From Candidatus Methanoperedens nitratireducens (lineage in GTDB: Archaea; Halobacteriota; Methanosarcinia; Methanosarcinales; Methanoperedenaceae), in the NCBI RefSeq assembly GCF_000685155.1, contig NZ_JMIY01000002.1:419755-472761 (forward strand): a stretch of 53,007 bases of DNA. Direction: 5' to 3'. The position numbers and the translations under genes are program-made. The first letter of the stretch is position 1; each line of letters starts with the position of its first letter. This document shows, in pieces, positions 47,449 through 51,433 of this stretch. Under the pieces are notes generated by a model, which did not search any database, was not told the DNA's origin, and saw only the letters and a program-made list of their open reading frames with translations.

Positions 47449-48537
47449 ATGAACGCACTTGATTTAATAAAAGACTCTAGAAAATTCGCAAAAGGAATGA
47501 GAATATTGCTGGAACAATCTGATGAAATTTCAACCGGGACAACGCCTTCTGAGGTAGTTTACAGTGAGGATAGGATGAGGCTTATCCATTATATCCCCAG
47601 GGTAGAAAGACCACATCCAGTTCCGGTACTCATAGTATATGCACTTGTAAACCGGTATTATATCCTGGACCTCCAGCCGGATAAAAGTGTGATAAAGAAG
47701 TTGCTGGATGAGGGCCTTGATGTCTATATCATTGACTGGGGATATCCCTCAGGCTCTGATAGATACCTTACACTTGATGATTATGTGAACGGCTATATAA
47801 ACAATGCTGTGGACAGGATCAGGGAAATATCTGGACTTGATAAGATCACGCTCCTGGGCGTATGTCAGGGAGGGACCCTCTCAGTAATGTATGCCTCATT
47901 GCATCCTGAGAAGGTGGAAAATCTTGTTACCCTTGTGGCACCTGTAGATTTTGATACAGATAAAGGACTTCTTAACATCTGGGCAAAGAGCACAGATGTG
48001 GATAAGATCGTGGATTACTATGGTATAGTGCCAGGGGACTTATTGAATATGGGATTCCTGCTTCTGGACCCGTTCAGACTTACGATTGATAAGTATGCAA
48101 GTATGTTCGAGCGCATAGAATGCAAACCGAATGATATAGAATGCCAGCGCAGGAATGAGGAGATCATCAAGAATTTCCTCAGAATGGAAAAATGGATATT
48201 CGACAGTCCCGGTCAGGCAGGTGAAGCCTACAGGCAGTTCATGAAAGATTGCTACCAGAAGAACCTTCTTATAAAAAACGAGATGAAGCTTGATGGAAAG
48301 AGGATCGATCTGAAAAATATAACCATGCCTCTGCTCAATGTCATGGCAGAGGCCGATCATCTGGTTCCCAATGAGGCAAGTATACCGCTGACTGATGCGG
48401 TATCGAGCCAGGATAAGGAGGCGCTGATCTTCCCGACAGGACACATAGGTATCTTTGTTGGCTCCAAATCCCAGAGAGAGGTCGTCCCAAAGATTGCGCA
48501 GTGGTTAAAACCGAGGTCTCTTTATAATCTATCCTGA
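47449..48537 (+). CDS. phaC: class III polyhydroxyalkanoate synthase catalytic subunit
   Basis: 362 residues, alpha/beta hydrolase. Lipase-like box GVCQGG with nucleophile Cys139, Asp303 (VMAEADHLVP) and His332 (FPTGHIGIFVG). It matches PhaC of the class III (PhaEC) type in length and in MNALDLIKDSRK...RLIHYIP. Class III PhaC needs PhaE, which is not in this window. The gene stands alone in its run, 51 bases after mscS, with its own likely promoter (TTTATATGTTTTAAAATAA). PHA storage is a known trait of Methanoperedens-type archaea; the other pha genes must be elsewhere. Confidence 0.92.
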   Translation: MNALDLIKDSRKFAKGMRILLEQSDEISTGTTPSEVVYSEDRMRLIHYIPRVERPHPVPVLIVYALVNRYYILDLQPDKSVIKKLLDEGLDVYIIDWGYPSGSDRYLTLDDYVNGYINNAVDRIREISGLDKITLLGVCQGGTLSVMYASLHPEKVENLVTLVAPVDFDTDKGLLNIWAKSTDVDKIVDYYGIVPGDLLNMGFLLLDPFRLTIDKYASMFERIECKPNDIECQRRNEEIIKNFLRMEKWIFDSPGQAGEAYRQFMKDCYQKNLLIKNEMKLDGKRIDLKNITMPLLNVMAEADHLVPNEASIPLTDAVSSQDKEALIFPTGHIGIFVGSKSQREVVPKIAQWLKPRSLYNLS

Positions 48538-48550
48538 ATTTCCTGAGATA

Positions 48551-49735
48551 TCACAGGAATGTAAGAACGCGGTTTGCATGGCATAGTATCGGGTCTGGCG
48601 CCAGTATTCCTCTGTACTGCTTTGCCCTGAACCTGCACCCACCCCTGCAATCACGAATGATCTTACAATCGCGGCAATCAAGCTTATCAAGCGTCCATAA
48701 ATAATCTCTACATACCTTTGCCCATGCTGCTTTAAGATCATTAACATTCCCTACCTGGTTATCTTCAAAAAAACCGCATTTACTGACAGTACCATCAGAC
48801 GAGACGGCACAGAGATGCGATCCGCATGTATAATCGCCGCTGCTCTCATGTGTTCCGGCACCGAACCCATACTTTAAGAACAGTGCCGCCTCCTCATTAT
48901 CAGGTATGTAATCCGGGTTATCCTTTAGATTCCCGGTAGCGCAGGGTACGTCAACACCCCATGACAGGATATTCAGATCAGAAAAAAGCCTTTGCATCTC
49001 CTCGAATTCTTCCATGTTGTATCTGTGTACCATTGTAGCGATAGAAACAGGTATATCGAAACTCTGAAGATTGGAAATACCGCGCATGGCTTTATCATAA
49101 GTACCCCTTCCTCGCAAAAGATCGTGCGCCCTGATGCCATCTATACTGACCTGTACCTCGTCCACATATTCTGAGAGTTCTTCAGCCTGCTTTTCGCCAA
49201 TCAGGGTTCCATTTGAGAGGACTACTGTCCTGAGTTCATAGGAAGCCAGAATTTCCATAAGCTTCCAGAATCCAGAGTGCAGAAATGGTTCTCCACCTGT
49301 GATCATGAGTTTAAGCCCGCCCATGTTCTCAAATTGCGAGACTGCCCTCTCAAACATGTCTATTTCAATTTCTTTATTCCCTTTTTCAAGATAGCAGTGC
49401 CTGCATGCAAGGTTGCATTTGTTGGTAATGCTTAATAGAAGATACCGAAGGGATGGTACGGCTGATTGCTCTGCTCTGATCTCTCTTATCTGAGGAATCT
49501 CCTGCATCTGGATTATGCCTTCGCTCAGCATATAATCAATGGCTTCCCGATCCTCGCCAATGTCCAGGATCAGGTTTGAGAGAGGAGTTCCACCATCGCA
49601 TTTTTTCAAGAAAAAAAACGCCTCATCATCCAGTTCATATAGCTCATCATCAGGTATATTATAGATATATGGACTCTCAAGCTTTCTCAGTACAAAACCA
49701 GGTGCAAGTACGGGAAAAAACTCATTTGAGGACAT
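48551..49735 (-). CDS. radical SAM-SPASM protein with N-terminal PqqD/RRE-like domain
   Basis: 394 residues. Residues about 1-80 resemble PqqD, the RiPP-recognition element (LAPGFVLRKLESPYIYNIP...YELDDEAFFFL). The radical SAM core has CNLACRHC (Cys107, Cys111, Cys114), GGEPFLHSG and SIDGIRAHDLLRG. A C-terminal SPASM-like cysteine cluster follows (CGSHLCAVSSDGTVSKCGFF, CRDCKIIRDCRGGC). This architecture is typical of maturases of ribosomal peptides. The ATG lies inside the end of a 58-codon gene immediately upstream, which is a candidate substrate or partner. Confidence 0.92.
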   Translation of the reverse strand: MSSNEFFPVLAPGFVLRKLESPYIYNIPDDELYELDDEAFFFLKKCDGGTPLSNLILDIGEDREAIDYMLSEGIIQMQEIPQIREIRAEQSAVPSLRYLLLSITNKCNLACRHCYLEKGNKEIEIDMFERAVSQFENMGGLKLMITGGEPFLHSGFWKLMEILASYELRTVVLSNGTLIGEKQAEELSEYVDEVQVSIDGIRAHDLLRGRGTYDKAMRGISNLQSFDIPVSIATMVHRYNMEEFEEMQRLFSDLNILSWGVDVPCATGNLKDNPDYIPDNEEAALFLKYGFGAGTHESSGDYTCGSHLCAVSSDGTVSKCGFFEDNQVGNVNDLKAAWAKVCRDYLWTLDKLDCRDCKIIRDCRGGCRFRAKQYRGILAPDPILCHANRVLTFL

Positions 49736-49898
49736 CTTCTATCGCTTCTGGAGTGATCATGCCCCGTTCCAGCATCGCCTTCAAAACTTTGAATGCAGCA
49801 CACTCAAGCTGGACATCATCTTCCCTGAAGAACTCGCAGTGTGTACAGATAAGTGCTACATAGGGATTATTCTCATTTTTTATCAAAGGATAAACCAA
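49722..49898 (-). CDS. small cysteine-containing protein overlapping the radical SAM gene
   Basis: 58 residues beginning MVYPLIKNENNPYVALICTH. It has cysteines at 18, 21 and 33 (ICTHCEFF...LECAAF) and a helical C-terminal half ending PEAIEDVLK. The TTG at 49898 is six bases after the tautomerase stop, and the last codons overlap the radical SAM start (14 bases), so the two are translationally coupled. It could be a RiPP precursor, a small metal-binding protein or an accessory subunit. It has no known leader motif. Confidence 0.6.
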   Translation of the reverse strand: MVYPLIKNENNPYVALICTHCEFFREDDVQLECAAFKVLKAMLERGMITPEAIEDVLK

Positions 49899-49903
49899 CT
49901 CAA

Positions 49904-50095
49904 TCAGACTTTTCTATCAGAGATTAACTGGCCGCCTACGGATACGTTCTCAGGCTGGGTCTCTTTAATCAGAACCACAATCGATTCTACAGGCAATTTG
50001 TAAGCCTCTACTGCAGCCTCTGTCATCTCTTTTACAAGCTTTCTCTTTATCTCAGTATCATTTATCTGTGGTCCATCTATGGTAATAAGCGGCAT
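49904..50095 (-). CDS. 4-oxalocrotonate tautomerase family protein
   Basis: 63 residues, normal for the family. The initiator methionine is followed by the catalytic Pro1 (MPLITIDGPQI), then KLVKEMTEAAVEAYKLP and IVVLIKETQPENVSVGG. Acts as a small oligomeric tautomerase or related enzyme. It is between the TrpRS gene and the small cysteine-containing gene, all on the minus strand with short gaps, so a common transcript is likely; a functional link to the radical SAM protein is not evident. Confidence 0.92.
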   Translation of the reverse strand: MPLITIDGPQINDTEIKRKLVKEMTEAAVEAYKLPVESIVVLIKETQPENVSVGGQLISDRKV

Positions 50096-50140
50096 TCTTT
50101 CACCACTTCTCTGATGTATGTTCCAATTATTTAACTTTTA

Positions 50141-51433
50141 TTATCTTACCTGCAGCCCGAACTCACCTAACTTCTCTTTTGCAAGCTCCCTCTTCTCCTG
50201 ATGCTCTTTTAGGAACTCTCGCATCAGGTCTGCAGCATATTTCTTGCACCTGCCGCAGACACGCGTTCCGCCCACGCAGTCCTTATAGTAATCCATGAGC
50301 TCTTTATCATCCTCAACAAGATGATAGAGCAAAAGCTCATACACAGTGCACTGCTCTGGCTCACCGCCAAGCCTTTTCTGCTCCTCAAGCGTTACCCTCC
50401 CGCCTGTCTTTGCGCGCATGACCTTCTTTGCGCCCTCATCAGGTGTATCTGTGAGGGCAATATAGCTCTCAGGTATGCTGCTTGACATCTTTCCACCCTG
50501 AAGCCCTGTCATGAACTTGTGATATGTGGATGCAGGAGGCATGAAGGCATAACCACCATGCTTTAACTCTACTTCACGAACCACGGATTCTACTTCCTGG
50601 AGATCGCGGGCAAAAATATCCACATGCTCTTCATAAAGTTTGCCTCCGGTACGCTTTGCGATCTCAAGGAGGGCTCCCTTCAAAGCCGCCTTGCCCCGCA
50701 CGCTTATATATGCTCCCTCTGCGCCCGATCGCTCTTCCACAATGAACATGTTCATCTTATACGCAAGACCACGGGTCAGCCTGATGTGCGGGTCCTGATC
50801 TGCGCCCACAGGAATGACCACGGGCTTTGGCCCTCCAGAATCCTTTAACTGGGGATGGAGTATGTCTGCGCTCTGCGTCAGGACGCTTACCATGTGTGCT
50901 ATATTCGTCTCACCGCTGAAACCATACACTGCTGAGAGCTCTGAGAAATTGGCCTTTATACCAAGCTCAAATGCCAGGTCTTTTACAGGGTCTGATCCTG
51001 ACTGGAAATAGATATGGCCGCCAGGCTCAAAGCCAAGCGCGATTGCACTTAGAATATATTCGTTTATGCCCAGTTCCCTGCATTTCTCCCATGATATACC
51101 CCTTACTGCATGCGCTTCCCTGTCTGCAATGGCCAGGTAAGCATCCCCGCCATGCTTCTGGTGCCATATGATCTCTTCCATCACCATCTTATGTCCAAGA
51201 TGCACCCTGCCAGAGGGCATGAAGCCTGAGAGGGCAGCAAAAGGCTTACCTTTTAGCATGGCATCCAGGATTGATTCATAGCTTCTGTGCCCGAAAATAA
51301 CATGCCTTCGCATGTATCTGTGCGGATCTGGTATTCTTCCAAGAAGCTCATTGAACCTTGATATCCCGAACTCATCAAATAGCTTTGAGTAATTATCGAT
51401 TCTAACTGCGCCCCATGGATCAAGTGTTGTCAT
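50141..51433 (-). CDS. trpS: tryptophanyl-tRNA synthetase, archaeal type
   Basis: 430 residues, class Ic synthetase of the archaeal/eukaryotic form that charges tRNA-Trp. The HIGH-like motif is [12 protein letters not shown] near 89-100; the KMSKS-like motif is [12 protein letters not shown] near 305-315. Also seen are [15 protein letters not shown] and the C-terminal [18 protein letters not shown] with a small cysteine motif. The N-terminus [17 protein letters not shown] is the archaeal start. No anomaly. Confidence 0.97.

Follow-up and report, generated by a model that had tools for sequence, protein, structure and literature searches.

A conserved archaeal gene pair: a radical SAM-SPASM enzyme with an RRE-like domain and a small cysteine protein that is its likely substrate

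We analysed a stretch of 53,007 nucleotides (the window) from contig NZ_JMIY01000002.1 of Candidatus Methanoperedens nitratireducens, in which two overlapping genes lie on the minus strand. The larger one (48551..49735, minus strand) encodes a protein of 394 aa that is an RRE-radical SAM-SPASM enzyme, and its ATG start is located inside a small upstream gene. An earlier note on this DNA, made from the letters and a list of open reading frames, had stated that the small gene encodes three cysteines and overlaps the enzyme gene by 14 bases; the coordinates of the open reading frames confirm this (overlap at 49722..49735, minus strand). The note had also given the small protein 58 residues. An open reading frame of this length with a TTG start and three cysteines exists (49722-49898, minus strand), but the start codon of most relatives is found 13 residues ahead of the first cysteine, and the equivalent codon in the window is the second TTG, at 49886. 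As placed by the relatives, the true start is thus more likely 49886 than 49898, which gives a candidate peptide substrate of 54 aa (49722..49886 with the stop codon, minus strand). Just upstream of the small gene lies a gene for a DmpI-type 4-oxalocrotonate tautomerase (window 49904-50095, minus strand, 87.8 bits against a cut-off of 70), followed by a gene that by eye resembles a tryptophan-tRNA synthetase. Among the 40 loci compared below, the tautomerase and the synthetase accompany the pair only in the window and in a close relative (G024). Rfam had no match in 48300-50400.

The assignment of the larger protein to the radical SAM-SPASM enzymes, made in the earlier note, was borne out. The radical SAM domain spans residues 102-250 (48986..49432, minus strand; PF04055, E 4.8e-24), and its CxxxCxxC triad, C107, C111 and C114, is invariant in 33/33 orthologue rows. 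The C-terminal segment, recognized by its motif (48581..48826, minus strand), reads C304-x10-G315-x4-C320...C354-x2-C357-x5-C363-x3-C367...C385 and corresponds to the complete seven-cysteine SPASM pattern, CX9-15GX4C-gap-CX2CX5CX3C-gap-C, as set out in a section of PMC6231123. All seven cysteines and the glycine are invariant in the same 33 rows, and in many Archaeoglobi rows the CX2C spacing is replaced by CXC. The Pfam SPASM model itself scored below threshold (11.5 versus a cut-off of 21.5 bits); among the best 25 of 88 NCBIfam matches none attained its curated cut-off, the top model among them being WgkB with 113 bits against 650. An enzyme encoded on a contig of Candidatus Methanoperedens nitroreducens is 92% identical to it.

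The AlphaFold2 model of the enzyme (mean pLDDT 91.7, pTM 0.90) was compared with solved structures. The best relative was SkfB (Z 27.1, rmsd 4.8, 330 residues aligned, starting from residue 12), followed by SuiB (Z 25.9, rmsd 4.0, 363 aligned, from residue 7), with an identity of 18-19% to both. The next matches, anSME and CteB (5why and 5wgg, which we take to be CteB structures), aligned only from residue 91 or later; the CteB match (Z 24.0) started at residue 92 and left out the N-terminal domain. PqqE was also found by fold, and viperins, MoaA and others, which have the barrel in common, stood lower in the list. When the sequence profile of the enzyme was compared with the PDB, the matches included SkfB, PqqE, CteB (5wgg, over residues 23-205), anSME, viperins and MoaA. 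SkfB, SuiB, anSME and CteB are enzymes that change peptides and proteins. Judged by its sequence and its predicted fold, the enzyme is an RRE-radical SAM-SPASM protein whose architecture resembles that of RiPP maturases.

The earlier note had described the enzyme as PqqD-fused, and this part of the description stands by profile and fold and fails by Pfam: at E<=1 the Pfam PqqD model (PF05402) matched 0/33 orthologues (20 families were matched, and all were inspected). The only PF05402 match in the genome itself lies elsewhere (L001, G000:C2:291094-291288), within an ORF of 719 aa; several relatives have comparable ORFs of 719-748 aa, which are unrelated to the gene pair. When a profile of the N-terminal 88 residues was compared with PqqD domains (20 of the 21 PF05402 domains from 40 relatives; L209, which contains a stop, was excluded), the probability was 91.8% and the E-value 7.5e-7 over 37 columns, i.e. 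about half of the domain, while two control pieces of the same enzyme each reached 0.2%. The profile match, together with the two full-length fold matches that reach the N-terminus (SkfB and SuiB; few rows of the structural alignments extend to the part ahead of residue 90), supports an RRE-like domain at about residues 7-88 (49472..49717, minus strand).

The small protein is conserved around its cysteines. In an alignment of 41 rows from both classes of archaea that carry the pair, C14, C17, F19, E28 and C29 were invariant, so that CxxCxF...EC was kept in 41/41 rows; position 24 was D or E in 39/41, and residues 12-13, before the first cysteine, were hydrophobic and mostly kept. This alignment excludes five close copies (L006, L010, L011, L013 and L020), a fragment cut by a contig end (L028), a second copy (L031) and a sequence in which one base is ambiguous (L082); on inspection by eye, these excluded sequences and both copies from the genome G448 keep the five invariant residues as far as they reach. 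The core motif, C-x2-C-x-F-[FY]...[LM]-E-C, which was defined by conservation and selection, occupies residues 14-29 of 54 (49800..49847, minus strand). In 23 Methanoperedens sequences (G010, G013 and G019 were excluded) pN/pS was 0.077 for residues 12-36, 0.36 for residues 37-49, 0.45 for the last five codons and 0.52 for residues 2-11, the least constrained part; these ratios are rough, as the synonymous sites are near saturation. The cysteine core is thus under strong purifying selection.

The same numbers bear on the idea that the small ORF acts as a leader or uORF and is conserved merely for the translation of the enzyme. As this idea would predict, many Methanoperedens members share the overlap and have a start context similar to GAGATAAAAGATG. 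The strongest constraint, however, falls in the cysteine core, roughly 40-115 bases before the overlap, while the last five codons are far less constrained than the core, and the motif is shared by the proteins of Methanoperedens and Archaeoglobi. We therefore consider a mere translational role highly improbable.

The earlier note had called the small protein unlike known precursor families, and indeed no known precursor family matched the copy in the window: no Pfam or NCBIfam model exceeded its cut-off for this protein. The SCIFF model was absent from the 10 NCBIfam families that the 41 members matched at E<=0.1, and the PqqA model was likewise absent from their NCBIfam matches; SCIFF peptides are defined by six cysteines in about 45 residues, and the small protein has three invariant ones. 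SHOCT_2 matched the C-terminal half in 12/41 members at E<=0.1 (best E 2.9e-4; E 0.064, below the cut-off, for the copy in the window); we read this as a generic short helical pair and give it no weight. In the structure model (mean pLDDT 79), two C-terminal helices are confident and the cysteine region is less certain; neither the sequence nor the fold of this very short model had a match in the PDB. A viral or plasmid origin of the pair was considered and set aside: the viral contigs searched contained no relative of the small protein, the best PHROGs match had an E-value of only 0.031, and the enzyme found three weak radical SAM matches in viral contigs.

The predicted C-terminal helices suggest a small folded protein rather than a free core peptide, and by sequence a C-x2-C with a third cysteine can equally be a metal site. 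The main rival to the small protein being the substrate is that it is an obligate partner which binds zinc or an Fe-S cluster and either feeds electrons to the enzyme or positions the true substrate. The arrangement of the three invariant cysteines (CxxC plus C), the helices, the weakly conserved N-terminus and a faint similarity of a few members to zinc-binding families (best E 0.0027, L33; Pfam zinc models at E 0.035 or worse) are all consistent with such a partner, which we regard as rather unlikely. An ordinary zinc site would need a fourth invariant cysteine or histidine, and the alignment has none; moreover, the enzyme carries an RRE-like domain of its own.

The association of the two genes was followed across genomes, a genome-neighbourhood survey being one of the checks that the earlier note had named beforehand. 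The small gene was found directly upstream of the enzyme gene and on the same strand in 40/40 loci (13 from Archaeoglobi and 27 others; these are genomes with enough flanking sequence, picked because they hold the small gene). With starts chosen by rule, 25/40 loci have an ATG or GTG start and an overlap of 4-14 bases, 2/40 have a gap of 1 base, and 13/40 have an overlap of 32-65 bases if the chosen TTG start is right, which is less certain; one of the TTG loci (G034) also has an ATG that gives an overlap of 14 bases. The overlap and the common strand suggest that the two genes form one operon. Because the pair recurs in all 40 loci and the core of the small protein has a pN/pS of 0.077, it is confirmed that the pair did not arise by chance.

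We also asked the reverse question: does the enzyme occur without the small gene? In 392 genomes of the phylum (inferred to be Halobacteriota), the enzyme profile at E<=1e-60 was present in 25, and 24 of these also contained the small gene; in the exception (G318) the enzyme is cut at the contig end and its upstream side is missing. An absent or unrelated small gene in genomes with the enzyme, which would have spoken against the earlier proposal, was thus not what we found. The search with the small-protein profile gave 26 matches in the 392 genomes, or 24 after the removal of two that look like chance (L087, which is short and contains stops, and L088, which lies inside a 380-aa ORF). Some radical SAM match to the enzyme profile at E<=1e-25 was present in 267/392 genomes. 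The enzyme family nevertheless has a sharp edge, since the orthologues score 390-618 bits and the best enzyme outside the family 147 bits. In one genome (G294) a 177-bit piece on another contig overlaps the model range of a contig-cut orthologue; it is either the rest of the cut gene or a second copy. When we inspected by eye the small ORFs with three or more cysteines at the five next-best enzyme loci (L212-L216), no similar small gene was seen. At two of these loci, L214:88-1340 (+) and L215:2388-3658 (-), which belong to another family of the phylum, there is a different RRE-like radical SAM protein beside repeated small proteins that by eye look like nitrile-hydratase-type leader (NHLP) precursors. 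The genome G448 has two diverged copies of the pair, each with the small gene directly upstream of its enzyme (L210 and L211); one of the two enzymes is cut at the contig start.

Single-protein searches of 60 relatives found the small gene in 29 and the enzyme in 28, and the two counts differ solely at G010, whose contig breaks off within the small gene; the enzyme genes of G013 and G016 are divided between contig ends. Within the genus, 26/31 sampled Methanoperedens genomes have the small gene. Two near-complete Methanoperedens genomes (G020 and G026) have no pair, so the pair is not essential across the genus. An order-level sweep detected the pair in 29/148 genomes, including those of a second family (one pair in G034 and two in G448). 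Outside the order, it was present in 19/59 genomes of the class that holds G270, G080 (Ferroglobus placidus) and G097 (Geoglobus ahangari), a class that we take to be Archaeoglobi. The chromosomes of Ferroglobus placidus and Geoglobus ahangari are published (PMC3236036 and PMC4600277). In the family of G080, 16/55 genomes carry the pair, with all or none of the genomes positive in most genera and a mixed picture in two (g55 and g67). Thus, across Halobacteriota, which the search covered together with one narrow pattern scan beyond the phylum, the pair occurs in two classes, on the Methanoperedens side and in Archaeoglobi (Ferroglobus and Geoglobus).

We then compared the neighbourhoods. When the 732 same-strand ORFs of 40 aa or more from the 40 loci (within 2.5 kb upstream and 3.5 kb downstream) were clustered, and clusters of at least three genomes were considered, only the small gene and the enzyme formed clusters common to both classes. 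Two further clusters, of 24 and 18 genomes, come from the Methanoperedens side only and have offsets inside the enzyme gene, and were taken as shadows in other frames. A second clustering (proteins of 75 aa or more, four upstream and five downstream, the 40 largest clusters) placed a few broad families, e.g. flavoprotein reductases, on both sides, at differing positions or strands. A 202-aa protein recurs on the opposite strand in 12/40 loci, in the Methanoperedens family only; otherwise the neighbours vary and include tRNA synthetases and RibB-like, cobalamin-like and flavoprotein genes. Neither a toxin gene nor an export gene was found to recur in both classes. Nor does any other precursor recur beside the orthologues in both classes, so that the candidate named in the earlier note is not refuted by a competitor. 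The claim that there is no exporter is weakened by a MacB/FtsX-like permease (exporter type) on the same strand upstream of the pair in three loci, L131:8524-9645 (-), L152:7630-8883 (-) and L132:9716-10969 (-); the three genomes (G006, G017 and G021) are all Methanoperedens, and none of the other clusters seen contains it. Pfam was run on 41 of the 68 close same-strand ORFs (27 were omitted as apparent other-frame shadows), and no peptidase was among the 25 of 63 matched families that were listed. The lack of a processing gene common to both classes would also suit a metal-binding partner; such a partner, however, leaves the enzyme in need of another substrate, and no other gene recurs by the pair in both classes as the true one.

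In at least 3/44 genomes (G140, L124; G448, L211; G003, L159) the gene for a heavy-metal P-type ATPase (TIGR01525) is no more than 5 kb away from the pair, against 0.5-0.7 genomes expected by a rough hand estimate from per-genome counts. This suggests, and only suggests, a copper or heavy-metal link. By eye, a CopY/BlaI-type regulator and HMA domains are also found near the pair in G140 and G448. In G021 (L132:9093-9446 (-)) the reading frame of the small gene continues upstream without a stop into a YHS-type (TRASH-like) metal domain, forming an ORF of 118 aa that is possibly a natural fusion of the two; YHS-like ORFs are present near the pair in G032 (L129) as well, and the YHS/TRASH names were given by eye. 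In the family of G080, we compared the 41 genomes of the 55 that are at least 90% complete (including G372, with 9% contamination): the median number of tandem CXXCH motifs was 11.5 in the 16 genomes with the pair and 8 in the 25 without it (one-sided Mann-Whitney p 0.058; the species are not independent). The genomes richest in CXXCH have the pair, and so do some with 2-3 tandem motifs; we do not claim a multihaem link.

What might the two genes do together? The enzyme has the architecture of a RiPP maturase, it is never seen without the small gene save at contig ends, and it is tied to nothing else; the small protein is therefore the prime candidate for its substrate, and likely is its substrate. 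The explanation that we favour, and hold to be somewhat better than evenly probable, is that the pair is a two-gene module in which the enzyme modifies the cysteine segment of the RRE-bound small protein, probably by a thioether, in a housekeeping role. The two genes would form a self-contained, translationally coupled module. The N-terminal RRE-like domain of the enzyme would hold the small protein, the CxxxCxxC cluster would generate the 5'-deoxyadenosyl radical, and the two SPASM clusters may bind the substrate thiolate and take up electrons. One or more bonds would be installed in the C-x2-C-[DEQ]-F-[FY]...[DE]...[LM]-E-C segment, most likely a thioether from a cysteine to a neighbouring residue, of the sactipeptide or ranthipeptide type. 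What the data show directly is the pair itself, its joint occurrence wherever no contig end intervenes, the architecture of the enzyme with its intact cluster motifs, and the selection on the cysteine core; the identity of the substrate, the binding by the RRE, the type of bond and the role are inferred. The invariant cysteines with acidic residues nearby would fit the formation of thioethers like those of ranthipeptides and QhpD, for which passages of PMC8326336 describe this chemistry (Cys-Asp/Glu thioethers in the case of QhpD). As conservation is strict and the two classes share no third gene, a housekeeping product, either the small protein in its modified form or a cofactor, seems more likely than an antibiotic; the strict co-occurrence of two genes with no shared third one points to a conserved cellular role and away from warfare.

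Leader sequences that are read by an RRE usually carry a conserved recognition sequence. In the small protein, residues 2-11, where such a site would lie, are weakly conserved (pN/pS 0.52), and this counts against a textbook RiPP, as does the lack of a processing gene recurring in both classes. The proposal of the earlier note, a candidate precursor, therefore holds in part: wherever the contig extends upstream of an orthologue, the small gene is found next to it, but with its weakly conserved N-terminal stretch and no shared third gene, the protein is an unusual precursor. Because of the weak N-terminus, the folded C-terminal half and the missing processing gene, we keep "substrate of the enzyme", which is likely, apart from a possible "RiPP precursor with leader and core".

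A variant of the favoured explanation, whose probability overlaps with it, is that the small protein is a substrate whose final form is a cross-linked small protein or subunit, like the QhpD-matured gamma subunit of quinohaemoprotein, and not a cleaved RiPP product. The conserved helices C-terminal to the cysteine core fit this outcome, as does the lack of a protease family among the 25 of 63 neighbour Pfam families listed, and the acids near the cysteines (D/E at position 24 in 39/41 rows, E28 in 41/41) recall the thioethers of QhpD in the passages cited (PMC8326336). However, no enzyme subunit that could be its partner accompanies the pair in both classes, and we consider this outcome possible, though not probable. 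A bolder and quite speculative proposal, to which we give still less weight, is that the pair makes a new peptide-derived cofactor, or a cross-linked small redox or metal protein, for anaerobic energy metabolism in archaea such as Methanoperedens, Ferroglobus and Geoglobus, with the substrate read through its folded C-terminal part or its cysteine core and not through a conserved leader; the pair would then be an archaeal two-gene counterpart of PQQ, mycofactocin or SCIFF. A likely substrate, its enzyme and a sharply bounded family are now defined, and the pair is present in culturable organisms (Geoglobus ahangari and Ferroglobus placidus).

Finally, we compared the pair with known systems. 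Like the SCIFF peptides and their maturases (CteA/CteB and Tte1186; ranthipeptides), it combines a small conserved cysteine peptide with an RRE-radical SAM-SPASM enzyme; it differs in having three invariant cysteines instead of six in 45 residues and in being archaeal. In a part of PMC8326336, the wide spread of SCIFF in Clostridia was regarded as evidence against an antimicrobial function. SkfA/SkfB (sporulation killing factor) and SuiA/SuiB (streptide) are the nearest by full-length fold, with an RRE, a radical SAM barrel and a SPASM/twitch end. The twitch domain of SkfB contains a single auxiliary cluster, as stated in a section of PMC6231123, whereas the archaeal enzyme has the full SPASM motif, and, in contrast to both systems, no toxin or export gene recurs in the two archaeal classes. 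With PqqA/PqqD/PqqE the pair shares a PqqD-like recognition domain, a SPASM enzyme and a short conserved substrate (the Pqq side as outlined in portions of PMC8326336), while the RRE is fused to the enzyme in the archaeal pair and separate in Pqq, and no further gene recurs in both classes. No paper on this pair was found in the literature searched, which leaves out most subscription journals and is not proof of absence. Archaeal radical-SAM RiPP pathways have been predicted in numbers, and few archaeal RiPP products have been characterised, according to portions of PMC12144867; that paper gives the numbers of archaeal ranthipeptide and sactipeptide clusters counted by antiSMASH, among which the enzyme may sit, and its main text contains neither "Methanoperedens" nor "Archaeoglob". 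Thus, the kind of system is known, and the two-gene archaeal version with this substrate family is new.
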